From assembly GCA_021295735.1 (NCBI GenBank), contig JAGWBU010000049.1, forward strand, positions 1 through 37,760: a stretch of 37,760 nucleotides of DNA, given 5' to 3'. Shown one piece after another: positions 13,878 through 37,585 of this stretch. The stretch's first letter is position 1; every line of letters starts with the position of its first letter. A program made the translations under genes and the position numbers. The notes under the pieces were generated by a model. That model was not told the DNA's origin, did not search any database, and saw nothing but the letters and a program-made list of their open reading frames with translations. The stretch comes from Candidatus Poribacteria bacterium. Its GTDB lineage: Bacteria; Poribacteria; WGA-4E; WGA-3G.

Positions 13878-14594
13878 ATGAGATTTACAACTTTCTGTTC
13901 GCTTATCGTAACAGTTATACTAATAACACCCGCGGCTTTAGCACTTCATGATGAAGACCAGGGACCGGAAAAATTTGGAAATTACGAATTCAAGGAGCAA
14001 GACATCAAAGCGGCAACAGACGCTTGTGATGCTGACGGTCGAGCAGGCCCCGAATTTGTGCCAACAGTTCGGGATAAAGAGCCAAATTTAGCACTTCTGA
14101 AAGATGCTAAGCCTGATGCTTCTTCACTCTTAGGAGGTTGGTGTCCACAACGGCATTGTACAGAATACCTTAACGATGGCTTCTATAACAATTGCCGTAG
14201 TTGGATTATCGACGCAATACCCGGTTGGGCACAGATTGACATTGGTGTTGTTGCAAATGTGAACCGTATCTATTTCGGTAGCGATCATGCGCAAAGTTTT
14301 ATTGACCGAACAACTGCCGACTTTGATATCCTCGTTGCAACAACTAAGGCAGACGCGAACTCCGAAGCAAACACCTGGAAAAAGGTCTATACTCACAAAG
14401 GTGCGGCTATAAGCAAAACCACTGAGATAACTTTTGACGATGTAGAGGCACGATGGGTACGCATTCACATTCGCGCCAATGGTGGTGCACGTATTGATGA
14501 AATCGAGATTTATGGTGGTAACGATCCGATGGCAGTTGAACCTACTGACAAACTAACGACAATCTGGGCACAAGTTAAAGCTGATAAATTTTAA
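13878..14594 (+). CDS. Secreted discoidin (F5/8 type C)-like protein with shared C-terminal tag
   Basis: A 238-residue exported protein. Residues 1-22 are a signal peptide ending PAALA. Residues about 70-220 look like a galactose-binding/F5-8 type C beta-sandwich (NLALLKDAKPDASSLLGG, then PGWAQIDIGVVANVNRIYFG and ARWVRIHIRANGGARIDEIE), a fold that binds glycans. It ends VEPTDKLTTIWAQVKADKF, a divergent version of the C-terminal motif found in four other secreted proteins of the window. The ATG at 13878 has AGGAGGA upstream; the longer frame from 13824 would put a non-signal stretch ahead of the signal peptide. Confidence 0.78.
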   Translation: MRFTTFCSLIVTVILITPAALALHDEDQGPEKFGNYEFKEQDIKAATDACDADGRAGPEFVPTVRDKEPNLALLKDAKPDASSLLGGWCPQRHCTEYLNDGFYNNCRSWIIDAIPGWAQIDIGVVANVNRIYFGSDHAQSFIDRTTADFDILVATTKADANSEANTWKKVYTHKGAAISKTTEITFDDVEARWVRIHIRANGGARIDEIEIYGGNDPMAVEPTDKLTTIWAQVKADKF

Positions 14595-14617
14595 CAATAT
14601 AATATAAGGAGATTAAA

Positions 14618-15328
14618 ATGCGCTATCTTATCTATTTGACACTGATTCTGTGTGTTGGCACCGTTTCAGCTGAAATTCTGTTTCAAGACGATTTTGAAAG
14701 TGGTAAAGTTGACAATGCAAAGTGGGCTCCACAAGGCACTTGGGTAATTGAGGATAATAAGGATGATCATGATGTTCTCGGCAAAAAAGTGCTTGCTGTC
14801 CAAGGCAGTGAAATTGGGCTCAGCGTTGATGAGTTTCCTGAAGAGTTCGATTATTACGCTGATTTTAAAACCGTATCGGCTGGTTTGACAGGCTTCTGTT
14901 TTCACTGTCAAGACAGCAATAACGTCTATATGCATCAAGTTTCAACAGCTGGTTCCGGGCATACGCCGCAACATATCCGGTGGCACAGAAAAGTAAACGG
15001 TGGTTATGCTGTTGAACCTGACCCATTCGCAGATAAAGTGAATCGTGACCAAAATGTGTGGTATCGCGTGAAGTTTGAGATGCGTAAAAACTACAAATTT
15101 AAGGTTTATCTCGGTGATGTCGGCGCTGAAAATAATGATCTCACCCTTGTGAGTGAATGGACAGATAGCCAAAAATCTTTTAAGATGGGTAAAATTGGAA
15201 TCCGGATGAGCGGTGGCGAGCGCGCACAATATGATAACATTGTTATTGCTACCCCAGAATTTGATATATTTCCCGTAGAACCTAAAGGCAAACTCGCGGT
15301 GACGTGGGGTAACTTGAAAAATAAATAG
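14618..15328 (+). CDS. Secreted LamG/DUF1080-like jelly-roll protein, copy 1
   Basis: A 236-residue exported protein with a signal peptide (residues about 1-18, ending GTVSA) and a single beta-jelly-roll domain. The opening FQDDFESGKVDNAKWAPQGT and the later SEWTDSQKSFKMGKIGIRMSG resemble concanavalin-like/DUF1080 domains that bind or cleave glycans. No glycosidase acid pair can be named with confidence. It ends VEPKGKLAVTWGNLKNK, the C-terminal motif shared with other secreted proteins here. The ribosome site is AAGGAG. It is a paralogue, equal in length, of the protein at 15538-16248. Confidence 0.8.
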   Translation: MRYLIYLTLILCVGTVSAEILFQDDFESGKVDNAKWAPQGTWVIEDNKDDHDVLGKKVLAVQGSEIGLSVDEFPEEFDYYADFKTVSAGLTGFCFHCQDSNNVYMHQVSTAGSGHTPQHIRWHRKVNGGYAVEPDPFADKVNRDQNVWYRVKFEMRKNYKFKVYLGDVGAENNDLTLVSEWTDSQKSFKMGKIGIRMSGGERAQYDNIVIATPEFDIFPVEPKGKLAVTWGNLKNK

Positions 15329-15394
15329 GTCAAAATCTCGTTTTTGTTCTTTCACAGCAACAGAAAAGATGGCTATTTACTTTGCCGTTTATGG

Positions 15395-15424
15395 TTACCT
15401 TAATAATATAGATTATGGTATAAT
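15395..15424 (+). promoter_or_regulatory. Extended -10 promoter for the second jelly-roll gene
   Basis: TATAAT at 15419-15424 preceded by TGG gives an extended -10; the -35 is weak (TTACCT at 15395-15400, 18-base spacer). The predicted leader is about 107 bases and contains the hairpin at 15485-15502. Confidence 0.5.
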
Positions 15425-15484
15425 TTAAATTGAATGGCAGTTGAATTGACTGTCAGATTAATAGTTTCTGAATTGATAAAAGCA

Positions 15485-15502
15485 GGCTTTGGCACCAAAG
15501 CC
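15485..15502 (+). promoter_or_regulatory. Perfect 8-bp hairpin in the 5' leader
   Basis: GGCTTTGG-CA-CCAAAGCC forms a perfect stem with a 2-base turn, flanked by CA/CCTG that can extend it. No T run follows, so it is not a standard terminator. It may be a leader stabiliser, processing site or protein-binding site. Confidence 0.4.
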
Positions 15503-15537
15503 ACCTGATTTTACCTTCACTATAAGGAGAAAATATT

Positions 15538-16248
15538 ATGCGATATTTAATCTGTTTAGCAATGATTCTGTGCGTTGGCACTGTATCTGCTGAACTGCTA
15601 TTTCATGATGATTTTGAAAGTGGAAACATTGACGAATCTAAATGGGCACCGCAAGGTACCTGGACGATTGAAGACAATGCCGATGGGCATGATGTACTCG
15701 GTAATAGTGTTCTTTTTGTTCCAGGTGGGGAAGTCGGACTTAGCATTGATGAGTTCCCAGAAGAGTACGACTATTATGCAGATTTTAAAGCCATGCAGAA
15801 TGGGTTAACTGGTTTTGTCTTCCACGGGACGGACGGTAACAACATCTACATGCACCAGGTCTCCACTGATGCCTCTGGTCATACACCTCAACATATCCGT
15901 TGGCATAGAAGAGTTAATGGTGGATGGGCTGCCGAACCAGGTGCTTTTGAAGATGGCGTTGATCGTAAAGCAAATGTCTGGTACCGTGCGAAATTCGAAG
16001 TGCGGAAAGGCTCTAATTTCAAGGCATACATTGGACCAGTAGGTGGCAGTGTTGGCGATTTATCTTTTGTAAGCGAATGGACCGATTCACAAGGCGCCTT
16101 CTCGTCAGGGAAAATCGGGTTCCGTATGAGCGGTGCTGAACATGCTCAGTACGATAATATATTTGTCGTAACACCGGGCGGTAATGCTACACCTGTTGAA
16201 CCGCGAGGTAAAATTGCTGTGACGTGGGGCAACTTAAAACGTAAATAA
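15538..16248 (+). CDS. Secreted LamG/DUF1080-like jelly-roll protein, copy 2
   Basis: A 236-residue paralogue of the preceding gene, matching through its whole length: signal peptide ending GTVSA, FHDDFESGNIDESKWAPQGT, HTPQHIRWHRRVNGG, and the C-terminal tag VEPRGKIAVTWGNLKRK. It is predicted to be exported and probably binds or acts on a carbohydrate. AAGGAG lies upstream of the ATG. It has its own promoter and hairpin-bearing leader, so its expression may be separate from copy 1. Its stop codon overlaps the start of the next gene (TAATG), coupling it to a Gfo/Idh/MocA dehydrogenase. Confidence 0.8.
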   Translation: MRYLICLAMILCVGTVSAELLFHDDFESGNIDESKWAPQGTWTIEDNADGHDVLGNSVLFVPGGEVGLSIDEFPEEYDYYADFKAMQNGLTGFVFHGTDGNNIYMHQVSTDASGHTPQHIRWHRRVNGGWAAEPGAFEDGVDRKANVWYRAKFEVRKGSNFKAYIGPVGGSVGDLSFVSEWTDSQGAFSSGKIGFRMSGAEHAQYDNIFVVTPGGNATPVEPRGKIAVTWGNLKRK

Positions 16249-17282
16249 TGCAACAAAAATCCACAATGAGTGCAACTCGTGGCGTTGACACCTTAGCCAT
16301 CGGCATTATTGGCGCCGGCAGAATGGGTAGACATCACCATAGTGCTATCACCAACTACGGTGCAAGGGTGGTTGCTGTCCACGATGTGCAGCTTGAAGCA
16401 GCACAAGAACTTGCAACGCTTGCCAACGCTGAACTTGCGACAGATGTACTGAGTGATTTTTTTGATGTAGAAATGCACGGGGTGGTGATTACAACACCAC
16501 CCCCTGTTCGTTTAGAGCCTATCCAGATGGCGTGCGAACACGACATTGCCTTAATGGTTGAAAAACCGCCTGCTCTGAATATTAGTGATGGACAGAAATG
16601 TCTTGAATGTATTGAGAAGGCAGATGTGATGGCAGCTGTCGGATTTCAACTCAGATATCATCCTCTCTATGAACAACTGAAAGCATTAATCGCTTCGGAG
16701 ACAGTCCATCTGGTGCGAACAGTTTGCACAATCAATTACTATCTCAATTTTCAAATGCCTACTTGGTTTTTACAGTCAGAGGTCAGCGGTGGACCCTTAG
16801 CAGAACAAGCTGTGCATGTGCTGGATTGTGCAAGATTTGTTATGGGTAATCCAAAACCTGTGCAAGCACATGCATTGGCTGTAAAAAATATGGCGTTAGA
16901 ACGAACCGAATTTGATGCTGAAAATGCTATACAAATGACTTATGAATTGGACAATGGCGTTTTCGGTACACACATGAATCATTGCGGCACCGAAGGATTT
17001 TGTTTTGATGTTGAGGTCGTAGGACCGCATTTACGCTTGCAAGCAAATATGGCGGACAGCGCGATTCGCGGCTATCTTAATGGTGAAACAATAAACGAGC
17101 CTGCTGTTTCGCAAAACAGTTTGGGTTTAGATAAAACTGGAGCGTGGCTACGTGCTATTGAAACAGGGGACAGAAGTCTAATCCGTTCCTCTTTTGCTGA
17201 CGCACTTGAGACGCTTGCATTAATTGACGCGGCAATCAAAAGCCGTAATACTGGACGATTTATTCAAGTGGAGGAATTATGA
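16248..17282 (+). CDS. Gfo/Idh/MocA-family oxidoreductase
   Basis: A 344-residue sugar dehydrogenase-type protein. The NAD(P) loop is IGIIGAGRMGRHHHSA (residues about 17-32), and the canonical E-K-P motif is in LMVEKPPAL. The C-terminal domain includes GFQLRYHPLYEQLKALI and EQAVHVLDCARFVMG, with the His-Asp pair expected near the active site. The ATG at 16248 overlaps the stop codon of the secreted protein before it; an internal Met at 16266 is a possible alternative start. The final bases provide the ribosome site (GGAGG) for the following selenoprotein gene. Confidence 0.9.
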   Translation: MQQKSTMSATRGVDTLAIGIIGAGRMGRHHHSAITNYGARVVAVHDVQLEAAQELATLANAELATDVLSDFFDVEMHGVVITTPPPVRLEPIQMACEHDIALMVEKPPALNISDGQKCLECIEKADVMAAVGFQLRYHPLYEQLKALIASETVHLVRTVCTINYYLNFQMPTWFLQSEVSGGPLAEQAVHVLDCARFVMGNPKPVQAHALAVKNMALERTEFDAENAIQMTYELDNGVFGTHMNHCGTEGFCFDVEVVGPHLRLQANMADSAIRGYLNGETINEPAVSQNSLGLDKTGAWLRAIETGDRSLIRSSFADALETLALIDAAIKSRNTGRFIQVEEL

Positions 17283-17626
17283 TGATAGACTGGGTATATT
17301 TTCGGAATAGCTGAAACTCATGCAAAAAAGTGCAAGAGGTTCTTGACACACATAACTTAGAAGCAAAAGACAGAACTGATGCTCGAAAAGAGAAGTTAGA
17401 AGCAGACGCAGTATGGGATTTAATAGAATCCGCTGAGCGGATAGTTGTTGCGAAAGGTAAAAGCATAGAAACCTTCGTGCCTGCTGAAGACGACCGTGAT
17501 TCAATCTTGAAAGCGGTTTTAGGACGGAGTGGCAGTTTGCGTGCCCCGACGGTTAAAACGGGCAATGTATTTTTTGTTGGGTACAACGATGCGCTCTATA
17601 CTGACGTGCCGTTCGCAAACGGATAA
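17279..17626 (+). CDS. ArsC/Spx-like selenoprotein with in-frame UGA (Sec12)
   Basis: Read through TGA at 17312-17314, the frame gives a 115-residue thioredoxin-fold protein starting MMIDWVYFRNS-U-NSCKKVQ, with a UxxC redox motif where relatives have CxxC. The C-terminal part (GRSGSLRAPTVKTGN, then FFVGYNDALY) matches the ArsC/Spx-type RAPT...VGY pattern. GGAGG lies 4-8 bases before the ATG pair at 17279/17282, ahead of the UGA. Starting instead at GTG 17330 would delete the first beta strand and the active site. ArsC-family selenoproteins are known in other bacteria. It overlaps the previous stop by 4 bases. A likely role is thiol/selenol redox chemistry; the substrate is unknown. Selenocysteine insertion machinery is not in the window. 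Confidence 0.82.
17330..17349 (+). promoter_or_regulatory. Candidate bacterial SECIS hairpin
   Basis: Starting 16 bases after the UGA, GTG-CAAGA-GGT-TCTTG-A-CAC can form an 8-bp stem with one bulged A and a GGU apical loop. The loop lies 24 bases after the UGA, inside the range usual for bacterial SECIS elements, and resembles the GGUC loop of E. coli fdhF. Confidence 0.6.
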
Positions 17627-17636
17627 CTAAAAATCG

Positions 17637-18401
17637 ATGGCTATTGAAAAGATACTGATTACAGGTGCCTCTGGATACCTCGCCCAATTTATCATTGAGC
17701 GATTGTATCCCAAATATCAACTGACGCTGACTGATATTGTTGAGCCGAAGCGCGATTTTGATGGGACAACATTTATCAAAGCAGATGTAACAAATGCCTC
17801 TGAGATTGAAGCGGCGTGTGCGGAGCAGGATGCTGTTGTTCACCTCGTTGCGCTGGTGCGGGAACGGCACGGTAAACCCTTGACCTTATTTGCTGATGTG
17901 ATGGTGAAGGGAACATGGAATGTTGCGGAGGCATGTGCTCGGAAGGGCGTACAAAAATTGGTAAACATTTCCAGTATTTCTGCTTGTTCTCCTGCTCCTG
18001 GAGCCAAATTGCCATATCAGGTTGACGATGCATTTCAGTTCGGCGCTGGTGACCTTTATTATGCACTGGCGAAACACCTCGGCGAACAGATCGGTTTGGC
18101 GTACCATCAGGCACACGGTTTGAAAGTAATTCATGTCCGTCCAGGTGTCATTGCAGGGGATGGGCTTAATCCAGGCCCTTCAGCACCTGAAGTCGTAACC
18201 GATCCTTGGTTCGTCTATGTTGATCCGAGGGATGTTGCGCAGTGTGTGGAACGTGCGATTGAAACAGAAAGCATAACTTATGGAGCGTATAACGCTGTCG
18301 CCGGGCGGGCAGATTCGCGTTTTGATTGGAAGCAGGCAAAAAAGGAATTGGGATATTCACCCGAACATAATTGGGATGAGATACCAGACAGTGATCAATA
18401 G
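17637..18401 (+). CDS. NAD(P)-dependent epimerase/dehydratase (extended SDR)
   Basis: A 254-residue SDR protein. The N-terminal dinucleotide loop is ILITGASGYLAQFI (TGxxGxxA variant), the acidic adenine-ribose residue follows in DIVEP, and the active site shows YYALAKHLGEQ (Tyr-x-x-x-Lys) with an upstream Ser-rich strand VNISSISA. It is shorter than typical sugar-nucleotide epimerases (about 310-340 residues), suggesting a compact family member acting on a sugar or sugar acid. It lies 10 bases after the selenoprotein gene, with little Shine-Dalgarno signal. The restriction-modification pair starts 8 bases downstream. Confidence 0.87.
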   Translation: MAIEKILITGASGYLAQFIIERLYPKYQLTLTDIVEPKRDFDGTTFIKADVTNASEIEAACAEQDAVVHLVALVRERHGKPLTLFADVMVKGTWNVAEACARKGVQKLVNISSISACSPAPGAKLPYQVDDAFQFGAGDLYYALAKHLGEQIGLAYHQAHGLKVIHVRPGVIAGDGLNPGPSAPEVVTDPWFVYVDPRDVAQCVERAIETESITYGAYNAVAGRADSRFDWKQAKKELGYSPEHNWDEIPDSDQ

Positions 18402-18409
18402 GGGTGCTT

Positions 18410-20787: not shown

Positions 20788-20825
20788 ATTCAGAAAACAC
20801 AATTCAGTCATTAGAAGATGCGGAA

Positions 20826-21182
20826 TTATTCTATGGATTCATCTTGACTATCGGATGATTCCTGTTCCAATTGCGCAAGACGTTGATCTAATGCTTGCTG
20901 CTGCCTTCCCAATCGCACTAAGTAGAGCATAAAGACCAGCCAAATAACGAGATAGGCGGAGACAAGGTATTTGAGGCGCTTGCGTTGCTTCGTTTCCAAC
21001 TCTCCTATAGAAAGAGTGACTGCTGCTCTGACAGTATCTTCATCTCCCACAGTAACTTGAGATTCTGATATTGCTTCTTTGGTAGCTGCGTCAATCTTTT
21101 TCTGATCCAAAGTTGGGACCTGAATCGCCAAGAACACCAAACCGACAACGATTAGAAAACTAACTATAATTACGATTCGCAT
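20826..21182 (-). CDS. CcmD-like membrane protein
   Basis: A 118-residue protein with an N-terminal hydrophobic segment (residues about 3-22), a soluble middle rich in acidic residues, and a second membrane helix (KYLVSAYLVIWLVFMLYLVRLGR) followed by a coiled-coil-like Gln/Leu tail. The second helix and tail resemble CcmD, the small protein that assists CcmC/CcmE in cytochrome c haem delivery. CcmD is usually about 50-70 residues, so this is an extended form. The ATG at 21182 overlaps the ccmC stop by one base, supporting the pairing. Confidence 0.6.
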   Translation of the reverse strand: MRIVIIVSFLIVVGLVFLAIQVPTLDQKKIDAATKEAISESQVTVGDEDTVRAAVTLSIGELETKQRKRLKYLVSAYLVIWLVFMLYLVRLGRQQQALDQRLAQLEQESSDSQDESIE

Positions 21183-24969: not shown

Positions 24970-24976
24970 GTGCTAA

Positions 24977-25818: not shown

Positions 25819-26748
25819 CTAAAAATTCGCAATCAAAGAAAATCGGTGTGTTAGCCCCAAATCTCCGAACGGTATAAGTGCGTAATCAATTTGGAATCTT
25901 CGGAGAGTCAGTCCAAAACCGCCTCTAAGCCCTGAAGTTGCACCTAAATCGTTTCCACCAAGTTTATATATATAACCTGTTCGTAGTTGCATAACGTTAG
26001 CTACCGTATAAGCGCCACCTATACCTATGGAATTATCGTTGTCCGTGGGACGAATGAAATCCATCGTTAGGATGACAGCATCGTTCCAAAGTCTATACGC
26101 TGTCCCTATTCTTAAAGTGAAAGGAAGTTCAAACGCATCTTCAACGTACTGTACTCGCGGTCCAATGTGTTGCGCGTTGAAACCGAGTGAAAGTGGAACG
26201 TTTGCAAAAGCGTATAACCCTCCAAGATCGAATGCGATACCGCTCCCGCTTTCGTCTGCGATCTGTTCCCGTAAGAATTTTGCGTTTGCACCAAAAGCTA
26301 ACGTTTTACCGATACTACGTGCATAAGAGAGAACTACTGCAAAATCATAAGGTCGGAAAAGCGTTGTTTCATTCCCTTCTTGATCGCGTCCTTGTAATTC
26401 ACCGAAGGATAAGAAATTTGCACTTGCACCAACAGTATTATTTCCAATCGGAAGGGCAAACCCCACAAACTCGTGATTAATTCCTGCAAACCATTCGTTA
26501 TGCATAAGTGCAAGTTGCGGTTTTTGTAGTCTTGTGAGACCAGCAGGATTCCAATATGATGCATAAAGATCGTCTGTTGCAGCGACTTGCGACTCTCCCA
26601 TTCCCATTGCCTTCGCACCGACGCCTATTTTGAGGAATGTCATTGCACGAGTTCCTGCGTTCTCGTGGATGTCTGTGCTATCAGCCGCAACGGGTATACA
26701 CGTGAAGATGGAAGTTATGATCAGAATACAAGTAAAGATGTAATTCAT
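25819..26748 (-). CDS. PorV/PorQ-family outer-membrane protein, copy 1
   Basis: A 309-residue predicted beta-barrel with a signal peptide (about residues 1-22) and the family signature GVGAKAMGMGESQVAATDDL, then YASYWNPAGLT. The remainder shows alternating amphipathic strands and ends in an aromatic residue (LIANF), as outer-membrane barrels do. PorV in Bacteroidetes is the type IX secretion shuttle that binds C-terminal signals; many relatives outside that phylum have no known role. A strong promoter (26823-26851) precedes it. A second family member lies at 30454-31533. Confidence 0.82.
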   Translation of the reverse strand: MNYIFTCILIITSIFTCIPVAADSTDIHENAGTRAMTFLKIGVGAKAMGMGESQVAATDDLYASYWNPAGLTRLQKPQLALMHNEWFAGINHEFVGFALPIGNNTVGASANFLSFGELQGRDQEGNETTLFRPYDFAVVLSYARSIGKTLAFGANAKFLREQIADESGSGIAFDLGGLYAFANVPLSLGFNAQHIGPRVQYVEDAFELPFTLRIGTAYRLWNDAVILTMDFIRPTDNDNSIGIGGAYTVANVMQLRTGYIYKLGGNDLGATSGLRGGFGLTLRRFQIDYALIPFGDLGLTHRFSLIANF

Positions 26749-27423: not shown

Positions 27424-27453
27424 AAGCCTAAATATGCTTTGCGACGATCAAAT

Positions 27454-29169
27454 ATGAATCTTGATAAAAACCAAGAGAAAGCTGTCAACCACTTTACAGG
27501 TCCCGCTATCGTTGTTGCTGGACCGGGGAGTGGTAAAACCGCAGTTGTAACAGCTCGCATTCTGAACCTTATTCAAACTCACAATATCCCTCCTTCAAAA
27601 ATCCTTGCTATAGCATTCAATAGAAAAGCAGTCGAAGAAATGGAAAATCGGATTGTGCGTGGACTAACGTCAAAGGGCACTTTGCCGGTCATTCGTACAC
27701 TCCATGCCTTTGGAAAAGATATTATCACTCAAAACTACAAGCAGGCAGGATTTGAACATCATCCCGAAATTTGGTCAGGGGAGATAAACAAAATCATTGC
27801 TGAAGAAAAAGGACAGATTGATCAGAAAGCCGCAATCACAAAAGTTTCCATATATAAAATTGAAAACAAACTGACAGGCAAGTGTTACATAGGACAGTCC
27901 ACAAATCCGGAACGGCGCAGGCGCGAACACTTTAGTCATTCCTCAAATGATCGACTCCGTCAAGCCATCCGATCTGAAGGAGAATTACAGTTCACATTTA
28001 AGGTTTTAGAACAGGTTGAAGGAAGAGAGGCGAACCGACGCGAAGCATACTGGATTAGGCATCACAGAAACTGTGGCGAAGTTTTCAACCGCGCAGACCC
28101 GATGCGTGAACAGTTTAGCAATCAAGTTTTGCTTGAGATGTTCTGTCAACATTTTAGCATTCAATATACTGATCATCTGGATAGAGACCCCGATTTTGAA
28201 AACCTTCGTGATCGTTTTTACGATATAAAAGATATAGTCATGCGTGCAAAACGGCAAGTAGAATCCGGAATCTTTGATCCAAACACATTACAAAATCCTG
28301 TGGCACGCGAATTTGCGAAGAAATATGAAGACCAAAAATCAGCCGCGAATGCTATTGATTTTGAGGATATGATTATCTACGCCGCACATCTATTAGAAAC
28401 CCACTCAAATATCCGCCAGACCTACCAAGACAGATACCTTTATGTGCTTGTAGACGAATTCCAAGATATCGCACCAATTGATTTTCGGTTGATTTCCCAG
28501 TTATCAGAGAACCTTTTTGCGGTTGGAGACGATGATCAGGCTATTTATAGTTTTCGCGGCGGTGATTCCCAGATTATGCAGAAATTTTCCAACCGATCAG
28601 ATGTTAAAAAATATGAGATTACACGCAATTATCGTTCCACGTCAACAATTGTTGAGCATGCAAGAGCTATAATTGAACGAAACAAGCCTCGGATTCGGAA
28701 AAACCTACGTTCCCATAATCCGATAAAAAAAGAAATAGGTATTATAGAGACAACGCCTGAAACCATCAAAAAATATCTACTACAACAATTATCTGATGTT
28801 GTTGAGACAGCTATCCTTGTCAGAACGAACTATGAGGTTGATCGGATTGAGGAGATACTCTCAAGTGAATCCTTATCTTTTTCAATAGAGGTGACGACAA
28901 TACACAAAGCAAAGGGACGTGAATGGGAAAAGGTTATCCTCGTTCACAATACGCTGGATCGGAAATTCCCTCGCCGCGATACCATCCTTGAAGAAGAACG
29001 TCGCGTTTTCTATGTCGCAATGACGCGGGCAAAGGAGCAGTTGGTTATCCTCGGCGGGACATGTCAATTCGTGCCAGAGTGTAAGAACATTCCGAAAAAT
29101 ATAAGGTATTATTATCGGCAGTTTGTATACTGGTGGGTAAGAAGGAAACTGAAAAAACTTGAGACGTAA
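27454..29169 (+). CDS. UvrD/PcrA-like helicase with an inserted GIY-YIG nuclease domain
   Basis: A 571-residue protein. Superfamily 1A helicase motifs are Walker A GPGSGKT (residues 23-29), motif II VDEFQD (about 334-339), motif III GDDDQAIYSFRGGD (about 358), motif V TIHKAKGREW (about 482) and motif VI YVAMTRAKE (about 520). Between motif Ic and motif II, residues about 130-217 form a GIY-YIG domain: SIYKIENKLTGKCYIGQS, Arg/His in PERRRREHF, Glu in REAYWIRHH, and the Asn in VFNRA. All expected catalytic positions are present. The helicase is shorter than UvrD (about 720), with reduced 1B/2B parts. The ATG at 27454 is preferred to TTG 27439. A role in DNA repair or defence is inferred. Confidence 0.85.
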   Translation: MNLDKNQEKAVNHFTGPAIVVAGPGSGKTAVVTARILNLIQTHNIPPSKILAIAFNRKAVEEMENRIVRGLTSKGTLPVIRTLHAFGKDIITQNYKQAGFEHHPEIWSGEINKIIAEEKGQIDQKAAITKVSIYKIENKLTGKCYIGQSTNPERRRREHFSHSSNDRLRQAIRSEGELQFTFKVLEQVEGREANRREAYWIRHHRNCGEVFNRADPMREQFSNQVLLEMFCQHFSIQYTDHLDRDPDFENLRDRFYDIKDIVMRAKRQVESGIFDPNTLQNPVAREFAKKYEDQKSAANAIDFEDMIIYAAHLLETHSNIRQTYQDRYLYVLVDEFQDIAPIDFRLISQLSENLFAVGDDDQAIYSFRGGDSQIMQKFSNRSDVKKYEITRNYRSTSTIVEHARAIIERNKPRIRKNLRSHNPIKKEIGIIETTPETIKKYLLQQLSDVVETAILVRTNYEVDRIEEILSSESLSFSIEVTTIHKAKGREWEKVILVHNTLDRKFPRRDTILEEERRVFYVAMTRAKEQLVILGGTCQFVPECKNIPKNIRYYYRQFVYWWVRRKLKKLET

Positions 29170-29189: not shown

Positions 29190-29227
29190 CGCCAGATATT
29201 TAAAAAACCGAATGTTAATTTTACCTG

Positions 29228-30457
29228 ATGGAAAACAATCAAAAAACCAAGAATTCATCTACTCGCAATCAGTTCTTCTTCCTCACATTTACACATACCA
29301 TCCTTGATTCTTACGCTAACCTATTTCCACATTTACAACCGCGTTTATTAGCTAACCTTGCTTCCGCAACTACGCGGAATAGTTTTGCGGGTATTCTCAT
29401 CTCAGTCTATAGCCTTTTCAGTTCTCTTGGACAGGTTTTCTTTGGATGGTTGTCGGATAGGGTAAGGACTATACATTTCATTACATTCGGAGTTGCATTC
29501 ACGGTAATCGGTTTAGGCCTGGTGAGTCTTGTCCCTTCAACAACTATTGTAATTATGTTATTAGCTATCGGTGGTACTGGTGTTGCAGCATTTCATCCAC
29601 AAGCAACTACCTATGCTGGGGCACTCGCAGCTGAAACAAGAGGTATGGGAATTTCCATTTTTCTCACAGGTGGTAATATTGGACGCGCTATTGGTCCAGT
29701 AGTACTACTTTTGATACCATACCGTCTCGGATACGGACATTTAATTTGGGAAATGATACCGGGTTTACTTGTAGCGTTATCGGTACCTATCATATTGAAA
29801 TTTGAACATGGACTTGACCTGACCGCTTCTACTCGTGTACTATCACATGTAGGAAAGACACAACGAGAATCCTTTTGGATTGTTGCCCAACCCCACCTGT
29901 TCCCACTAATTGTATTGTTTGTTGTTGCCTCATTTCGAACGGTCACTGGGATAGGATTAGAGAACTTTCTCTCCATCTACTTAAATGATCTTAACTATTC
30001 TGACCAGAAACGTTCATTAGTTATTGCACTCTATATCTTTGCAGGTTCTATGGGTATTATGGGAAGTGGATGGGTATTAAGTCGTGTACATACACTTATT
30101 TTATTGTTGTTCTCACTTGTTGTTGCACCGCCACTGCTCTATGTTGCACTTCACACTCAGGGTATCACTTCACTAGTATTTCTGTTTTTGGGTAACGTAG
30201 TTCTATCAAGTTCAATTACCTTAAACATCATAGTAGCACAGATTATTTTGCGTGGGCATGAGAACATCGCATCAAGTTTTATGATGGGTGCATCGTGGGG
30301 TGTGGGTGGATTATTAAATTTGATTGTCGGTGCTTTGGCTGATAAGTACGGATTACCTATTGTGCTGGATTGGTTAGTAATGGTGCCGTTGATGGTGTCT
30401 CCACTGGTCATATTCCTCAGGAGTCAACCAGATTTGTCTAACCCAAAATCTGACTAA
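29228..30457 (+). CDS. MFS transporter, fosmidomycin-resistance (Fsr)-like
   Basis: A 409-residue major-facilitator protein with about 12 membrane helices. The opening LTFTHTILDSYANLFPHLQP is characteristic of the Fsr-like group, and the loop 2-3 motif appears as GWLSDRVRT. The family exports drugs such as fosmidomycin or small metabolites; the substrate cannot be told. It has its own weak promoter. Its stop codon overlaps that of the convergent PorV-like gene (CTAA serves both strands). Confidence 0.87.
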   Translation: MENNQKTKNSSTRNQFFFLTFTHTILDSYANLFPHLQPRLLANLASATTRNSFAGILISVYSLFSSLGQVFFGWLSDRVRTIHFITFGVAFTVIGLGLVSLVPSTTIVIMLLAIGGTGVAAFHPQATTYAGALAAETRGMGISIFLTGGNIGRAIGPVVLLLIPYRLGYGHLIWEMIPGLLVALSVPIILKFEHGLDLTASTRVLSHVGKTQRESFWIVAQPHLFPLIVLFVVASFRTVTGIGLENFLSIYLNDLNYSDQKRSLVIALYIFAGSMGIMGSGWVLSRVHTLILLLFSLVVAPPLLYVALHTQGITSLVFLFLGNVVLSSSITLNIIVAQIILRGHENIASSFMMGASWGVGGLLNLIVGALADKYGLPIVLDWLVMVPLMVSPLVIFLRSQPDLSNPKSD

Positions 30458-31533
30458 AAAGTCCACAGCACACTCAAAAAATGGGTATTAATCAGGTCTC
30501 CAATGAGAAGTGCGTAATCAAGCCGAAACTGTTTGAGTTGGATACCGACTCCACTTGTCAACCGGGTATCACGGTAGCCAACGCGCAGTGCTAACGGAGG
30601 ACTGAGTTGATATTCTATGCCGAGATGTGTTTGCCCACCATAACGTTCCTGCCATTGATAAGATAAAATGAGTTCACGATTAAAAAGAAGTTTTGTGAAA
30701 TATGCGAGACCTATATTCAGATTCGCTGGGATTGATTCTTTGCGTGCGGGTACGGTATTCCATGTCAAAGTAGTCTGTGATACGTCTTGAAGATTCACAC
30801 CGAAAGCAAAACCACCCACGTTCTCAAGTCCAAAAAGGGCATTCATGTCTGGCAGCCGCATTAACATACCCGCATCAAAGCCGTATCCGCTGCTACCATA
30901 ACTTGAGAACAAAGCAGTGGCATCGTCAAGATCACCCGCTCCATTGAAATTTTGAAAGATACCTTTCGCATTTATGCCAAATAGAAATTCCGGCGGAACA
31001 GAATCTCTACCAAAGTTATCCCACCAAGATTGACTGACCGCGACACGCGTTGCAAGTGATAGCACAAATGCGTTTTCACTATCGTTAAGATAACCTGAAG
31101 GGATAAAATCTTCTTCTCGTGGTCTGTATTTTGGGTTGTTTTTGCGTTGATCAGCACTAATATCTGGATCAAATGCTGGCACATCGTAATAGATAGGGAT
31201 GTCGTCAATACCAGCGCGAATCCACGAGAGGCCGAGTGTAACTTGCGGTAAGATTTTTCCTATACCGCTGACGTAACTAAAAGCCCCTAATCCAGAGCGG
31301 CGTGTGGCATGCATCATACAGACTTGATAATTTTGTGGAACGCCTGCTATTCCCGCGGGATTCCAGTAGGTAGCAGTAGCATCGTCAGCGATGCTTACAT
31401 AGGCACCCCCGAGTCCAAGAGCGCGCGCCCCAATGCCGTTCGTCAAAAAATCGCCTGTATAGTTTTCTGCCGATGCGGACAATACGATGAGAAAACAGCA
31501 TCCGATAAGTCCCAAGTATTTTAGTTTACGCAA
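30454..31533 (-). CDS. PorV/PorQ-family outer-membrane protein, copy 2
   Basis: A 359-residue predicted outer-membrane beta-barrel. The signal peptide covers about residues 1-22 (hydrophobic, ending ASA). The family signature is GIGARALGLGGAYVSIADDA, then TATYWNPAGIAG. It ends in an aromatic residue (VLWTF). The start is TTG at 31533, with AAGGAAA upstream; no better in-frame ATG precedes the signal peptide. It lies 45 bases downstream of the SUMF1-like gene on the same strand. Relatives in Bacteroidetes act in type IX secretion; here the role is unknown. Confidence 0.8.
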   Translation of the reverse strand: MRKLKYLGLIGCCFLIVLSASAENYTGDFLTNGIGARALGLGGAYVSIADDATATYWNPAGIAGVPQNYQVCMMHATRRSGLGAFSYVSGIGKILPQVTLGLSWIRAGIDDIPIYYDVPAFDPDISADQRKNNPKYRPREEDFIPSGYLNDSENAFVLSLATRVAVSQSWWDNFGRDSVPPEFLFGINAKGIFQNFNGAGDLDDATALFSSYGSSGYGFDAGMLMRLPDMNALFGLENVGGFAFGVNLQDVSQTTLTWNTVPARKESIPANLNIGLAYFTKLLFNRELILSYQWQERYGGQTHLGIEYQLSPPLALRVGYRDTRLTSGVGIQLKQFRLDYALLIGDLINTHFLSVLWTF

Positions 31534-31578
31534 TGATTTCTATTTCCTTTTAGATTCCGCCATAACAGTGTATTATTT

Positions 31579-32400: not shown

Positions 32401-32436
32401 TTGCTACACCCGATTTAGATCAAAAGCATTCTGTAA

Positions 32437-32462
32437 TGTCGTGACCAGGAGGTTGCTCCTAC
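32437..32462 (-). repeat. REP-like palindromic element
   Basis: On the minus strand it reads TGTAGGAGC followed by AACCTCCTGGTCACGAC, the same style as the element at 1534-1560. It fills the 69-base gap between the PhyH and SUMF1-like genes. Confidence 0.45.
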
Positions 32463-32469
32463 AGAAAGA

Positions 32470-33333
32470 TTACACCCTATTAAGATCAAAATTGTTCCAA
32501 TAGTACTGAAATTGTGTAGATTTCCATCCGTTATAAATTTCATCCCAAGGCATTCTGTTGAAATGTGGCAAAAGCGAACCCTCCGTCACAGGTTTTGAGC
32601 AACCTTGATACCGATAATCCACTGAAAGGCGTATCCGATCAGGTGACTGATTCGGCAGTGCTTTGTGAATAGTATGGCTATGGAAGAAAATGGCATCACC
32701 TATCTCGTAATCTCCACCAACCCAATGCAATCCATCTGCTTCCAACGGATCAGTATCAATGCCTAGTCCGCCCGCGCCAAACGCTGGCTTCACGGGAAAA
32801 ATGCCAAACCGATGCGATCCAGCTAAAACAGATAATCCACCCATATATTCAGGACACGCACCCAGTGGAATCCAACCTGTGTAGGTATCTTCTGTACCTC
32901 GGATATGGATAAAGTCTTGGTGTGCAGGGGTTGTATACTTTGTGTTTTCTGGGAACATGATTCTTCCGATATTCCGCGGATGCACCAGTGTTTTTTCGCC
33001 AAACAACTTGTCGCACATATCTAAAATTGCAGGATGATGTGCAAACGCATGAAATGATTCAAGAGATTGGAATTCGTCTAACACGGGCCAATATCCATCA
33101 TCACCTTCCATAAATGGGCCACCCGTGCGTATGCCTTCCATCAGTGCTTCTCCGCCTTGTGCCCATCCGTGCCGATGACAAATCTCTAAGAAATCTCTGC
33201 GTAAGTTATGAATGGATTCAGCATCAATTAATCCACGAAAGTAGAGATAGCCATCCTGCTGTGCGCGTTCGCGGAGTTTTCCAGGTTGATCTAACAATTC
33301 ATTTGAGACAAAAAAAGGTTCAATTCTTGTCAT
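32470..33333 (-). CDS. Phytanoyl-CoA dioxygenase (PhyH)-family protein
   Basis: A 287-residue Fe(II)/2-oxoglutarate oxygenase. The iron ligands are His138 and Asp140 (PAHQDFIH) and a distal His, probably His223 in SHTIHKALPNQS; the 2-oxoglutarate Arg is in PDRIRLSVD. The family hydroxylates diverse small molecules or lipids, and the substrate is unknown. It has a strong promoter and a leader of about 40 bases with GGAA before the ATG. It leads a probable minus-strand unit with the SUMF1-like and PorV-like genes. Confidence 0.9.
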   Translation of the reverse strand: MTRIEPFFVSNELLDQPGKLRERAQQDGYLYFRGLIDAESIHNLRRDFLEICHRHGWAQGGEALMEGIRTGGPFMEGDDGYWPVLDEFQSLESFHAFAHHPAILDMCDKLFGEKTLVHPRNIGRIMFPENTKYTTPAHQDFIHIRGTEDTYTGWIPLGACPEYMGGLSVLAGSHRFGIFPVKPAFGAGGLGIDTDPLEADGLHWVGGDYEIGDAIFFHSHTIHKALPNQSPDRIRLSVDYRYQGCSKPVTEGSLLPHFNRMPWDEIYNGWKSTQFQYYWNNFDLNRV

Positions 33334-33379
33334 AACGCGTTCCTCGTCTCTCCGATAGAATGTTGTTTATATAACTGAT

Positions 33380-33409
33380 ATTATACCAACAAAATAGGAG
33401 GCGTGTCAA
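33380..33409 (-). promoter_or_regulatory. Near-consensus sigma-70 promoter for PhyH
   Basis: Minus strand TTGACA (33409-33404), 18-base spacer, TATAAT (33385-33380) with TGG upstream (extended -10). Confidence 0.78.
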
Positions 33410-33423
33410 ATGGGTGTGTAAAG

Positions 33424-33450
33424 TTTTTGTAGAAATCCGCCCTACAGTGG
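33424..33450 (-). repeat. Short REP-like hairpin
   Basis: TGTAG and CTACA (33428-33432 and 33442-33446) form a small stem around a GC-rich loop. The minus strand begins TGTAGGGCGGATTTC, like the other TGTAGG elements. From here to about 33605 nothing else is recognisable. Confidence 0.35.
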
Positions 33451-33605
33451 AAAACGCCGCGTAATCATTGCAAATTGAACCTATGTGATATAGAATGATG
33501 CCAGACAGAGCTTCAGGTCTAAGTCGTGCCTTACTTCAAATTAAAATCAATCCCATGATTACCATTTACTCGTTTGTTGAGACTTGCTCCAATTTTCTTC
33601 AAAGA

Positions 33606-34035
33606 ATTATAAAACCTATAATTTAGAAATATCTCGTAATTACTATGCTATATTTTAGAATTATTTACTCACTCTGCACCCGCGAGGTTAGGAAACCTCC
33701 AAATCAAGAAATCAACGCTACAAATCATGGCGAATGCCATACGGGGAATGCCAAAGGGCATTCATACCGTTGATTTGGCGCATTCGTCTTGAGGCATTTG
33801 GCCAAATCAACGCTGAATACGCTTTTGGTATTCAGCCAAATCAACGCAGCATGCGCCAAATCAAGAAATCACCAAAAGCGTATTCTACCAAGCGCATTCG
33901 TCTTTAGTCATTCACCGGGTCCGAATGCCTGTTGGCATTCCCCGTCCGGCATGCTGCGGGTATGAATCCCATTTAGGCATTCCCCGCCTACCGAGGGATG
34001 AAAGTGTCTATTTATTTCTATAATTCACCATAAAT
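33606..34035. mobile_element. Possible MITE-like element carrying the hairpin array
   Basis: The right end, read on the minus strand from 34035, starts ATTTATGGTGAA and reaches GACACTTTC, matching the right end of the 10558-10779 element. The left boundary is less sure: AAAACCTATAATT at 33611-33623 is shared with the left end of that element. Between them lies the hairpin-rich core at 33684-33990. There is no reading frame. Confidence 0.45.
33684..33990. repeat. Dense array of short hairpins and direct repeats
   Basis: Perfect inverted pairs: GAGGTT/AACCTC (33684-33699), GAATGCC/GGCATTC (33746-33763), a 12-base pair (33768-33779 with 33801-33812), GCTGAATAC/GTATTCAGC (33812-33836), GAATGCC/GGCATTC (33923-33940), and a long-range 10-base pair (33845-33854 with 33949-33958). 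Direct repeats include CCAAATCAACGC, CCAAATCAAGAAATCA, GCGCATTCGTCTT and GGCATTCCCCG. There are no regular spacers, so it is not a CRISPR array. Confidence 0.8.
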
Positions 34036-34045
34036 CGTATAATTC

Positions 34046-34076
34046 TTAACAGATTATTTTGAGAATATGCTACAAT
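34046..34076 (+). promoter_or_regulatory. Weak extended -10 promoter
   Basis: TACAAT at 34071-34076 with TGC upstream; TTAACA at 34046-34051, 19-base spacer. It lies about 30 bases before the enolase-superfamily gene. Confidence 0.42.
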
Positions 34077-34107
34077 TCAGAACAATCCAAACATTAGGAG
34101 GCATCAG

Positions 34108-35289
34108 ATGCTTAGCATCAAGCATATAGAAACAATTCCATTGAATGTACCGTTCTATTGTGAACGTGTCAGTCAACACATGCACCGAGCAGCAACACAT
34201 GGGGAACGCGTTTACGTCTATCGCGTTGAACTTAGCAACGGGGTGATTGGATATGGTGAAAATTTATCTGATGAATCAGGGAATATTGAACGATTGATAG
34301 GGCAGAATCCGTTTGCATGTATGAACGATGATGGTTTCGGGTTCGGTATTCAAATGTCGCTTTATGATGCTGTGGGGAAAACGGTCGGTGTCCCTGTTTC
34401 CGACCTGATTGGTCCTAAAGTTCGTGAAAGATGCCCAATTTCTTGGTGGGATATTGACATGCCACCTGAGGATTGGGTTGCAGAAGTCCAAGAATCTGTC
34501 AAAAGAGGTTATACTTCCGCAAAACTCAAAGCGCGACCTTGGCGAGACATCTTCGCACAAGTTGATGCAGTCGGCAACGCAGTACCAGCGGACTATCGGC
34601 TTGACATTGATTTCAACGGTTTCCTGCGGACAGCGGATAACGCTATTCCTGTTTTACAGAAGTTAGATAAACATCCGAATGTTGCCATCTACGAGAGTCC
34701 GTTTTACCTCGGAACTGATATAGAAGGTGCTGGGAGGTTACAGGAGGCTGTTCAAAAACGTATCGTAGAGCATTACAACGAATCCTGTTTGCATGCGCGC
34801 TGTTGTGGCGGGTTTGTTGTCGGCGGTGGTGTAAACTCACTACTACGAACCAACGCGCTCTGTGCTTCGTTTGGGCAACCTTTCTGGCTTCAAATGGTTG
34901 GCACTGGCATTACAACGGCATATTGTGTACATCTTGGTGCAGTACTATCGCAAGCCGAGTTGCCTGCAATCACTTGCCATGAGTTGTGGGAATCGGACCT
35001 GCTTGAAACACGACTCGAAGTAGTTGATGGGACGATCCAAGTTCCAGACTCACCTGGATTGGGAGTTTCTGTGGATGAGGACGCATTAACAACATATCGC
35101 GTTGAGAAATCAACACCCACACCGCAGCAGCTGTTCCACCAAAGTGAGTATACCTGTAGAGTGCATATCCCAAATGCGGATGGTGGCGAGACAGTCCATG
35201 ATTTCAGCAGTGAGGGTGTCTATTATCCCGCATTCAGTGAAGGGAAATATCCCGGTTTTGTGCCGGGAGTATGGATGGAAGTAGTTTAA
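34108..35289 (+). CDS. Enolase-superfamily (mandelate racemase/muconate lactonising) protein
   Basis: A 393-residue protein with the N-terminal capping domain and a TIM barrel. The base motif K-x-K appears as Lys139-Leu-Lys141 (SAKLKARPW). Metal ligands are probably Asp168 (DIDFNG) and Glu196 (YESP); the third ligand is not obvious. The family abstracts a proton alpha to a carboxylate, in acid-sugar dehydration or racemisation. The C-terminal 80 residues after the barrel are an unusual tail. AGGAGG lies 8 bases before the ATG. It stands alone between a hairpin array and palindromic elements. Confidence 0.85.
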   Translation: MLSIKHIETIPLNVPFYCERVSQHMHRAATHGERVYVYRVELSNGVIGYGENLSDESGNIERLIGQNPFACMNDDGFGFGIQMSLYDAVGKTVGVPVSDLIGPKVRERCPISWWDIDMPPEDWVAEVQESVKRGYTSAKLKARPWRDIFAQVDAVGNAVPADYRLDIDFNGFLRTADNAIPVLQKLDKHPNVAIYESPFYLGTDIEGAGRLQEAVQKRIVEHYNESCLHARCCGGFVVGGGVNSLLRTNALCASFGQPFWLQMVGTGITTAYCVHLGAVLSQAELPAITCHELWESDLLETRLEVVDGTIQVPDSPGLGVSVDEDALTTYRVEKSTPTPQQLFHQSEYTCRVHIPNADGGETVHDFSSEGVYYPAFSEGKYPGFVPGVWMEVV

Positions 35290-35341
35290 TGATTCACTTG
35301 TTGTTTATTTCTAACCAATTTTTCTGAAAATCTACTATATT

Positions 35342-35460
35342 AACCTAAGTTGCTACGGACAAGATTTCAAGCTTGCAGACATTGCTTTTTACTGAAAAAC
35401 AAGGATTTCCAGCAAACCCCTCCTACAAGAGCATTCGCGATATAGGTAGCAACTTGGGTT
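35342..35460. mobile_element. Small inverted-repeat element (about 119 bp)
   Basis: AACCTAAGTTGCTAC (35342-35356) and GTAGCAACTTGGGTT (35446-35460) are inverted with 14 of 15 matching, and both are flanked by ATAT-like bases. The inside includes a TGTAGGAG-type REP fragment on the minus strand (35401-35428). No reading frame. Confidence 0.6.
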
Positions 35461-35466
35461 ATATTA

Positions 35467-35495
35467 TTGACAAAAATATAGCAAACTGGTATAAT
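35467..35495 (+). promoter_or_regulatory. Perfect-consensus sigma-70 promoter without an obvious gene
   Basis: TTGACA, exactly 17 bases, TATAAT, with TGG before the -10. The next coding start on this strand is about 500 bases away. The transcript would begin inside the direct repeat at 35494, so it could make a non-coding RNA or a long leader for the LamG gene. Confidence 0.75.
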
Positions 35496-35571
35496 AGACA
35501 TTATAATGAATTAATCACAGAAGTTTCATAAGACCAGGGTCTAAAGTTTAGGTGAAAGTTGTGTAACCTAC
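35494..35571. repeat. Direct repeat, copy A, flanking the LamG genes
   Basis: About 78 bases starting TAGACATTATAATGAATTA, recurring at 37683-37760 with roughly 85% identity by eye. Together the copies enclose both LamG genes. Confidence 0.8.
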
Positions 35572-35691
35572 AACAGGTTTCCATACCTAAATCACAAAAG
35601 CCTTTTTCCAAGTCCGTAGTTTATCTTTTTCGTTGCTGTATCTTTTGACACCGCATTATGCCTTAGTGCTTAAAAATCCGACTATTTTTCC

Positions 35692-35721
35692 TTGACTTTG
35701 ATTTAATACTTAGCATATAAT
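35692..35721 (+). promoter_or_regulatory. Sigma-70-like promoter overlapped by a palindrome
   Basis: TTGACT (35692-35697), 18-base spacer, TATAAT (35716-35721). The -10 lies within the left arm of a perfect palindrome (35714-35751), an arrangement typical of operator control, so a repressor site is possible. Confidence 0.55.
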
Positions 35722-35751
35722 TCACATAAAGTCATTTATGTGAATTATATG
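35714..35751. promoter_or_regulatory. Perfect 17-bp inverted repeat with 4-base centre
   Basis: Arms 35714-35730 and 35735-35751 are exact reverse complements around GTCA. The core includes TTCACATAAA/TTTATGTGAA. It is either a dimeric-regulator site on the overlapping promoter or a hairpin in a transcript from 35467. Confidence 0.65.
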
Positions 35752-35795
35752 AAACTAAATAATTGGCTTATATATGATATTGTTCGAAATTACTT

Positions 35796-35947
35796 AGGAC
35801 TTACGTAATAATCCTTGATATAGACTATTCAACTTTCCAATATGGCTATGGTGTGAGAGGGTAAAAAATGGCAAACCAACTCGTGTTGATTACTGTCAAT
35901 CTATATTCAGCACACACCTCTCAACTATACTCTAATGCGTAAGTCCT
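35796..35947. mobile_element. Small MITE-like element with AGGACTTACG ends (152 bp)
   Basis: The left end AGGACTTACGTAA (35796-35808) and right end GCGTAAGTCCT (35937-35947) are inverted. GGACTTACGCA-type ends are common in small transposon derivatives. The inside holds only a 24-codon frame from 35869, which is unlikely to be a gene. No clear target duplication. Confidence 0.6.
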
Positions 35948-36009
35948 GACACAATTAAATCGTTATAATGTCTAATATCTCAACTTTTAACTAAGGAGGA
36001 ATTATAATC

Positions 36010-36829
36010 GTGAAATCTGGAAATGTTACAAATAATTATCATCATTCTATATTTTCCATTTTTTGTGGAAACCTTCACAAAATGGTGATATATATATTAT
36101 TGTTTACTTTTATTTTTGTCCTGATCCCTTACGTAATGTCGGCAGACTTTGCGGACGGGCTAATACTATATCACGCTTATGACAAAGGGGAAGGTGATAT
36201 CGCAGAAGATATTAGCGGTAGCGGCCACGATGGTAAAATAGATAACCCAAATTGGGTTGATGGAAAATTTGGAAAATCGCTACAATTTAATGGTGCTGGC
36301 AGCGGTATGTTTGTCACCGTTGAAAGTACTGAGGCACTTAACGTCAATGAATGCACATTCATGGCATGGGTTCATGCGGAACATTGGGATGACACTCGTC
36401 AGATTGTTGGCAAATCTGTTCACGGCGGTTGTAGTGGGAGAGGACAATACGGTCTGTTCAGCGAAAACGGGGTTTTCAAACTCCGTTTTGAAACTGAAGT
36501 TGCCCGAAACCGAGAAATGGGTGCATGTTGCTTTTACAAACGATGGCACTACCGGAAAAATCTATATTGATGGAGACGAAGTAATGGCAGGCAATGTTCC
36601 AGGGAAACTTAAATCTAACGCCGATCCCTTGCGGATAGCGCAAGATTGTGACAGACCCAACAACGTCTTCGCTGGAATGATTGACGAGGTGCGTCTCTGG
36701 AATCGCGCATTAAGTGAAAACGATATTGATAAGTATAAGGACCAAGATGTAGAAGGTGCGCTCGCTGTTACACCATCTGGAAAACTCTCAACTACATGGG
36801 GTTACCTCAAACAGGTACCCTTATTCTAA
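36010..36829 (+). pseudogene. Secreted LamG-domain protein, copy 1, frameshifted
   Basis: From GTG 36010 (AAGGAGG upstream) the frame encodes a signal-peptide region (hydrophobic segment ending VMSA, about residues 26-45) and the first half of a LamG/concanavalin domain to FKLRFETEV near 36500. It then leaves frame and stops at 36570. The second half (LPETEKWVHVAFTNDG, IYIDGDEV, IDEVRLWNRALSE) continues in the +1 frame to 36829 and ends GKLSTTWGYLK plus five residues, the shared C-terminal tag. LamG domains bind glycans or proteins. Either the gene is broken, or the sequence has an error, or it is read by frameshifting. Confidence 0.78.
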
Positions 36830-36845
36830 AAAGGAGACAAATAAT

Positions 36846-37585
36846 ATGAAAAACTTAAGTGTTTTTACGCTAATTATAGCAATTTTTGTGTTGACACCAC
36901 TAATAGCATCTGCGGACTTCTCAGAGGGACTCGTCCTGAATTTCTCTTTTGATGAAGGTGAAGGTGAAATTGCTGGAGATATCAGTGGCAATAGTCATAA
37001 TGGCACAATTGACAACCCACAATGGGTTGATGGAAAGTTCGGAAAAGCACTGAAATTTGACGGTGCGGGAAGTGGCATGTTTGTGACGGTGGAAAGCACC
37101 GATGCGCTCAACGTCAATGAATGTACCTTTATGGCATGGATTAACGCCGAAACGTGGGATGGCACTCGTCAGATTGTTGGCAAATCTGTGCACGGCGGTT
37201 GTAGTGGGAGAGGACAATACGGTCTGTTCAGCGAAAACGGGGTTTTCAAACTCCGTTTTGAAACTGAAGTGAAACTGGAAAGTGGATACATGTTGCTTTT
37301 ACGAATGATGGCGAAATGGCTAAACTCTATATTGATGGAGAGGTCATAGGTGAAGCGGAAATCCCCGGAGCACTAAAAAGCATTGACGACCCGTTGCGGA
37401 TAGCCCAAGATTGCGATAGACCCAATAACGTCTTCACTGGAATAATTGATGAAGTACGTCTCTGGAACCGTGCATTGAGCCAAGATGATATTAATATCGC
37501 CAAGGATTTGAGTGCACAAGCCACACCGGTTGATCCGCTTGGCAAACTTTCTACGACTTGGGGAAATCTCAAATCAAGATTTTAG
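36846..37585 (+). pseudogene. Secreted LamG-domain protein, copy 2, frameshifted
   Basis: The ATG at 36846 (AAGGAG upstream) starts a signal peptide (about residues 1-21, ending ASA) and the first half of a LamG domain to FKLRFETEV near 37272. The frame then diverges and stops at 37349. The second half (ETGKWIHVAFTNDG, KLYIDGEVIG, IDEVRLWNRALSQ) continues in the -1 frame to 37585 and ends VDPLGKLSTTWGNLKSRF. A TGA in the downstream frame limits the shift to after about 37268. It is a tandem paralogue of 36010-36829, 16 bases downstream, broken at the same homologous point but in the other direction. Confidence 0.78.

Follow-up and report, generated by a model that had tools for sequence, protein, structure and literature searches.

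Positions 1 to 37,760 of contig JAGWBU010000049.1 from a Candidatus Poribacteria bacterium (GenBank assembly GCA_021295735.1), hereafter called the window (contig C117 of the 230-contig, 5.07 Mb assembly; the whole stretch of 37,760 nucleotides was analyzed), encode five proteins that share a C-terminal tail some 17 residues long, with the approximate consensus V-[ED]-[PA]-x-[GD]-K-L-x-T-T-W-[GA]-x-[LI]-K. Positions within the tail are counted from the tryptophan (0), and its core runs from V(-10) to K(+4). Recurrence across the genome and the phylum, terminal position, signal peptides, diversity of the preceding domains and conservation at the protein level together support the view that the tail is a real, domain-independent C-terminal signal of exported proteins, as the initial annotation of the window had supposed.

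Tail-bearing genes of the window

All five genes lie on the forward strand, and their tail cores were located by motif scan and profiles. The first encodes an exported F5/8 type C (discoidin-like) protein (13878..14594, tail core 14535..14579), with a signal peptide recognized by eye and matches to PF22633 (30.0 bits) and PF00754 (28.7 bits), each above its cut-off. An exported jelly-roll protein (14618..15328, core 15275..15319) and its paralog (15538..16248, core 16195..16239), assigned by 69% sequence identity to the first, come next. The DUF1080-like label that both had received applies only weakly, as one scores 26.0 bits against PF06439, short of the cut-off of 26.8, and the other has no match to this family. 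The remaining two are LamG genes, 78% identical across 556 bases, at 36010..36829 (core 36767..36811) and 36846..37585 (core 37529..37573). Both are frame-broken, so that signal peptide and tail sit in separate frames: the signal-peptide frames span 36010-36570 and 36846-37349, the LamG end and tail of the first gene lie in a frame ending at 36829, and the tail of the second lies in a frame ending at 37585. PF13385 matches the C-terminal pieces (71.5 and 68.5 bits, respectively) and neither of the N-terminal ones. The statement that all five proteins combine a signal peptide with the tail thus needs qualification for the LamG pair. Likewise, unrelated domain types are indeed present, but the five different folds originally described come down to three, since the jelly-roll and the LamG proteins each form a paralogous pair.

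A syntenic relative (L198) contains two neighboring unbroken frames of 287 and 257 residues, both terminated by the tail. Within the window, the LamG copies break frame at a corresponding spot, just 3' of a near-identical stretch of more than 100 bases common to both, and the breaks may reflect either an assembly fault or genuine decay. By eye, the pair sits between two direct copies of a repeat about 70 bases long (about 35496-35570 and 37684-37757).

The common motif itself was borne out. A six-frame scan with a relaxed motif found exactly five sites in the window, all on the forward strand and each 2-5 residues ahead of a stop codon (14550-14579, 15290-15319, 16210-16239, 36782-36811 and 37544-37573). 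Moreover, a profile trained on 131 tails of the same genome, with the five window tails excluded, was run on 673 open reading frames (ORFs) of the window and recovered all five, with independent E-values (i-E) of 8.7e-10 to 3.2e-8. The next match in the window had an E-value of 18, and the top reversed and shuffled sequences reached 2.4 and 3.2, respectively.

Distribution within Poribacteria and beyond

Across the source genome, a profile of the window's five tails gave at least 141 matches at E<=10 (150 of 176 candidates scored), and a profile of 136 tails at least 143 at E<=1 (150 of 201 candidates scored). The reading frames of the 141 matches were inspected; one had no complete core, leaving 140 tails. 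The tail locator required K at +4, a demand that lost no tail with another residue there, as the sole coreless match stops before this position. Among the 140 tails, V(-10) was counted 129 times, K(-5) 132, W(0) 137, G or A(+1) 137 and K(+4) 140 times. Only 1-10 residues follow the core lysine in 132 tails; the other eight are not terminal within ten residues, four being followed by 16-27 residues and four running into a type A domain of the type IX secretion system (T9SS). On one contig, some ten tagged genes follow one another (G000:C202:4244-28798); in three of them a T9SS domain continues from the tail, and leucine replaces the tail tryptophan.

The tail was found in all 84 Poribacteria genomes searched, representing 21 of 21 genera (profile, E<=0.01), with 27 to at least 109 matches per genome. 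Position was checked only for the loci obtained from this search, in which all 47 profile matches lay within ten residues of the stop codon. When one genome per species (84,980 species) was scanned with a DNA pattern, at least 113 stretches were obtained; 111 of the matches listed belong to Poribacteria, one to Planctomycetota and one to Pseudomonadota, and being a minimum among the matches listed, this figure sets no bound on spread elsewhere. Terminal position was again the rule, with 101 of 102 matches in the first 80 stretches and 163 of 165 profile matches in the 111 poribacterial stretches lying within ten residues of the stop.

Outside the phylum, the Planctomycetota group has the tail in two of its 199 genomes searched (E<=0.001), with two tails apiece on contigs of 4.3-6.7 kb, and mis-binned poribacterial DNA is a possible source. 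The order of a genome labelled Pseudomonadota (G085) has it in two of 43 genomes, G085 itself and G308 (E<=0.01), and the corresponding phylum group in two of 58 (E<=0.001), a group too small to be Pseudomonadota as a whole. For G308, mis-binning is unlikely, as it has nine matches on a single contig of 2.84 Mb. All 13 profile matches in 12 stretches from these two genomes are within ten residues of the stop. Three tagged G308 proteins (L358:8888-10015, L360:18221-19327 and L362:9944-11092) share 32-40% identity with a tagged protein of the source genome (L069:1501-2733); by eye, they have lipoprotein-like starts and an HExxH stretch. Pfam searches of two of them and of the source-genome protein returned ankyrin repeats above cut-off and metalloprotease models only beneath it. 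To judge from this likeness, gene transfer probably brought the tail along with an HExxH-ankyrin protein. Two of the three G308 genes have a neighbor whose start is pilin-like. The remaining tagged proteins of G085 and G308 look trypsin-like by eye, an assignment that is not claimed here; all four tested match no Pfam family.

Cargo, conservation and conformation of the tail

By a simple rule, 124 of the 140 tagged frames of the source genome start with a signal peptide, as compared to 64 of 143 neighboring ORFs. One of the 124 calls is a chance start in the window's broken first LamG frame and was left out of the domain scan. The 16 frames without a signal peptide include 13 of at most 181 residues; the other three have 216, 266 and 878 residues. 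The 13 short pieces look as though frame breaks or contig ends had truncated them. Lipoprotein and twin-arginine (Tat) patterns occur in three and two of the 124 proteins, respectively, and these few are not trusted. The 123 proteins scanned match 78 Pfam families (overlapping propeller models included), with LamG in 61 and PD40 in 19; their domains, such as LamG, beta-propellers, F5/8 and CBM9, are unrelated, and the proteins are mostly small. No model of the tail was among the matches listed for them (25 of 78 Pfam and 25 of 36 NCBIfam families). Conversely, a distance rule places 65 of the genome's 71 LamG domains ahead of a tail; four of the other six sit in frames of 697-1382 residues, one lies 77 bases from a contig start and one falls short of the rule by 7 bases. 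The outcomes that the initial annotation had named as speaking against its proposal (a tail mainly inside proteins, mainly on cytoplasmic ones, or part of one known domain) are contrary to what was found.

Recurrence, C-terminal position, the link to signal peptides, unrelated domains and selection on the peptide (see below) lead us to consider it somewhat probable that the tail serves as a short linear signal for sorting or docking that is read after Sec export. The cargo would cross the inner membrane via Sec by means of its ordinary N-terminal signal peptide, and its domain would fold, with the tail of some 17 residues projecting freely from it. A dedicated receptor, periplasmic or located at the outer membrane, would then recognize this sequence (V, E/D, P, K, L, T/V, W, G/A, L/I, K) and either pass the cargo on or fix it at the cell surface; receptor, receptor site and cargo destination are what we infer. 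Several points weigh against this proposal. The rule used to call signal peptides is an ad hoc one, and the neighbor control for it, being 45% positive, is not cleanly cytoplasmic; neither a receptor nor an enzyme was found, and any location directed by the tail is presumptive. Furthermore, G308 and G085 could have inherited tails while lacking the system, although all 13 profile matches there are still terminal, and "sorting" would be a misnomer if the tail only docks partners outside the cell.

This last point leads to a less likely, though conceivable, alternative, in which the tail is a dockerin-like docking peptide that plugs binding proteins into a surface scaffold, with export left to Sec and a general outer-membrane route. 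Carriers that are mostly small and bear binding-type domains (LamG, F5/8, CBM9, propellers) would suit such a role, as would the free combination of domain and tail and the predicted flexibility of the latter. Against it, no tandem copies and few internal ones were seen among the source-genome tails, neither of which a docking module need avoid, and no scaffold candidate was found, although no profile search for one was made.

The tail is under selection as peptide and not as DNA, since synonymous codons are mixed and nucleotides past the stop codon are unconserved. For 137 tails, Thr(-2) is encoded by ACA (39), ACG (28), ACT (23) and ACC (16), all six codons are in use for Leu(-4), and there is no conservation 3' of the stop; a DNA element or mobile cassette was rejected on these grounds. 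Retention was followed in homologues of the second jelly-roll protein, taken from the 30 best loci found with 15538-16245, a query that included the tail: 49 frames match the domain with the tail removed, and 47 of them, down to 41% identity, retain the tail by a strict pattern. The two failures comprise one frame with Arg at +4 and one without an end. It is therefore barely credible that the tail is a functionless leftover of a duplicating and recombining LamG family; LamG proteins do account for roughly half of all carriers (61 of 123), many of them in tandem, but neutral tails should have decayed, and here the tail is retained on unrelated folds and diverging domains with mixed synonymous codons. 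A periplasmic degradation or quality-control tag, ssrA-like but encoded in the gene, would agree with terminal position and flexibility. It is highly improbable, as constant destruction is hard to explain for a gene-encoded tail long retained on about 140 proteins, including those with 65 of 71 LamG domains.

The two core lysines stand out. Among 366 poribacterial tails, with the lysine positions left free, -5 is occupied by K in 359, R in six and L in one, and +4 by K in 365 and R in one, counts that are biased to K because the loci L182-L294 were fetched by a pattern requiring lysine codons at both positions. Source-genome tails found by profile (n=140) agree, with K 132 and R three at -5 and K 140 at +4. 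Over the four residues past +4, the 366 tails contain 193 R versus 129 K. Avoidance of arginine at -5 and +4 within an otherwise arginine-favoring stretch suggests a lysine-specific pocket or chemistry on the amine. The latter could mean that a periplasmic or surface enzyme recognizes the tail and joins lysine +4 (or -5) through an isopeptide-like bond to a surface polymer or partner protein. Such a covalent route is rather unlikely in our view; if true, it would provide surface display that needs neither a transmembrane helix nor a folded C-terminal domain, and a new sorting system that extends across one entire phylum and has been transferred to at least one further lineage.

Two AlphaFold2 models predict a tail that is detached from a confidently modelled domain. 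For a tagged LamG protein (46 sequences, mean predicted local distance difference test (pLDDT) score 86.6) the final ten-residue blocks score 59, 55 and 63, with a weak helix, and for a second tagged family (10 sequences, mean pLDDT 77.6) the final blocks score 44 and 39, with no structure. Three sequences in the PDB matched the motif at E<=10 (best E 0.2) and were judged chance. The weak helix in one of the two models, together with the basic character, the single tryptophan and the spacing of a short amphipathic helix, would be consistent with a tail that binds membrane or lipopolysaccharide without any protein receptor, L(-4), W(0) and L/I(+3) forming one face with lysines around it. Membrane-binding helices usually keep a pattern rather than residue identity and tolerate exchange of K and R. 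The tail keeps identity (W in 137 of 140, K(-5) in 132 with only three R, V(-10) in 129), and the second model is unstructured at this point, making the amphipathic alternative quite improbable.

Comparison with known sorting systems

Known C-terminal address signals that are common to many exported bacterial proteins mostly bear a transmembrane helix or a folded domain. The tail, as had been noted from the five copies, has no hydrophobic helix of the LPXTG, PEP-CTERM or GlyGly-CTERM kind: tripartite signals require a helix and a basic cluster after the signature, and with 1-10 residues past the core lysine a helix does not fit in 132 of the 140 tails. PEP-CTERM/exosortase and GlyGly-CTERM/rhombosortase signals resemble it in being short, C-terminal and placed on many unrelated exported proteins, but consist of signature, hydrophobic helix and basic cluster. 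The lysines recall the linkage of Braun lipoprotein by L,D-transpeptidases, in which a critical lysine lies close to the C terminus of an exported protein; the tail lysine, however, is not the last residue, and no YkuD match was found in the source genome, G045, G308 or G085. As far as the consulted part of one report goes, MYXO-CTERM/myxosortase tags are likewise phylum-wide, C-terminal, present on dozens of proteins per genome and used for surface sorting, but contain an invariant cysteine and a transmembrane helix and terminate in an Arg-rich stretch, all of which the tail lacks, and LPXTG sortase signals are C-terminal and follow a Sec signal peptide, whereas the tail has neither LPXTG nor a helix (PMC11980579).

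Linkage to peptidoglycan by L,D-transpeptidases was rejected, as YkuD (PF03734) has no match in the source genome, the single-contig genome G045 or the tagged G308 and G085. Four of 13 Poribacteria have YkuD matches; the untagged relatives G309, G315 and G286 (three of three) have one to five each, and the tagged G308 and G085 none. Beyond being a C-terminal signal of exported proteins, the proposed role in sorting, anchoring or processing has gained no partner: no tail-linked protease, sortase-like enzyme or export protein turned up, sortase, exosortase, rhombosortase and myxosortase not having been searched for. Likewise, no receptor candidate emerged among neighboring genes when the 12 tag-bearing stretches of G308 and G085 (a small part of either genome) were set against about 1.68 Mb of poribacterial DNA, a comparison that yielded general genes and one common tagged protein. 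Presence/absence profiling within Poribacteria offers no contrast, as all 84 genomes are tagged.

Among the closest known systems, the type A sorting domain of T9SS (TIGR04183) is found in the same genome, at 30 places above cut-off. It, too, is C-terminal and placed on unrelated cargos that a diderm exports by Sec, but has an Ig-like fold of about 72 model positions, as compared to about 17 residues, predicted to be detached or disordered, for the tail, which also occurs in genomes without a match to SprA_N. TIGR04183 matches only four of the 123 tagged proteins, and the remaining ones end at the tail. An origin of the tail from the type A domain was rejected, as the tail precedes three of the 20 domains whose linker could be read (the other 10 of 30 escaped the pattern). 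SprA_N matches (E<=0.001) occur in 11 of 11 Poribacteria tested, and seven of 15 genomes searched exceed the curated cut-off; the match in the source genome (9.4e-5; G000:C191:5999-6307, in a frame of 2168 residues) lies beneath it. The window itself encodes, on the reverse strand, a PorV/PorQ-family outer-membrane protein that may be a shuttle (25819..26748; NF033709, 202 bits, cut-off 90) and a second PorV-like protein (30454..31533; NF052325 101.3 and NF033709 83.4 bits, each below cut-off), both regarded as context only. A 2014 study, in the part available, described T9SS-type sorting domains on poribacterial proteins, found no structural Por genes and called the route still unrevealed (PMC3909097). 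Judging from the SprA_N matches and the PorV-family proteins of the window, Poribacteria probably hold a T9SS-like translocon in addition to the tag.

Conceivably, the tail might itself be a minimal T9SS signal, with the SprA translocon and PorV-family shuttles reading it in place of the full Ig-like domain. The same SprA_N matches and PorV-family proteins would fit, as would the four of 141 tail matches that directly precede a type A domain. We consider this doubtful, as tails precede few of the readable type A domains (three of 20) and W is replaced by L in three of the four tail-plus-domain cases; moreover, the type A domain is, in the part of the literature consulted, a folded Ig-like domain that requires PorV (PMC12618676), which a tail of 17 residues does not resemble. 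In addition, no SprA_N match was found in the tagged G308 and G085 or in two untagged relatives, so that SprA is probably not the only reader of the tail.

No description of the tail was found in the open-licence PMC literature, and a sorting system based on it seems previously undescribed. A soluble tail this short (about 17 residues), carried by some 140 exported proteins in one genome and found in all 84 genomes searched of a phylum, would be a new type of signal. It raises the question of how Poribacteria, sponge partners that are abundant and uncultured, position their many proteins of the LamG, propeller and discoidin types, and it offers a means to list the probable cargo of an unknown route as well as a peptide for a receptor hunt. 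Apart from the tagged genes, the window contains a UvrD-like helicase frame (27439-29169) with an apparent GIY-YIG-like stretch in mid-frame, as seen by eye.

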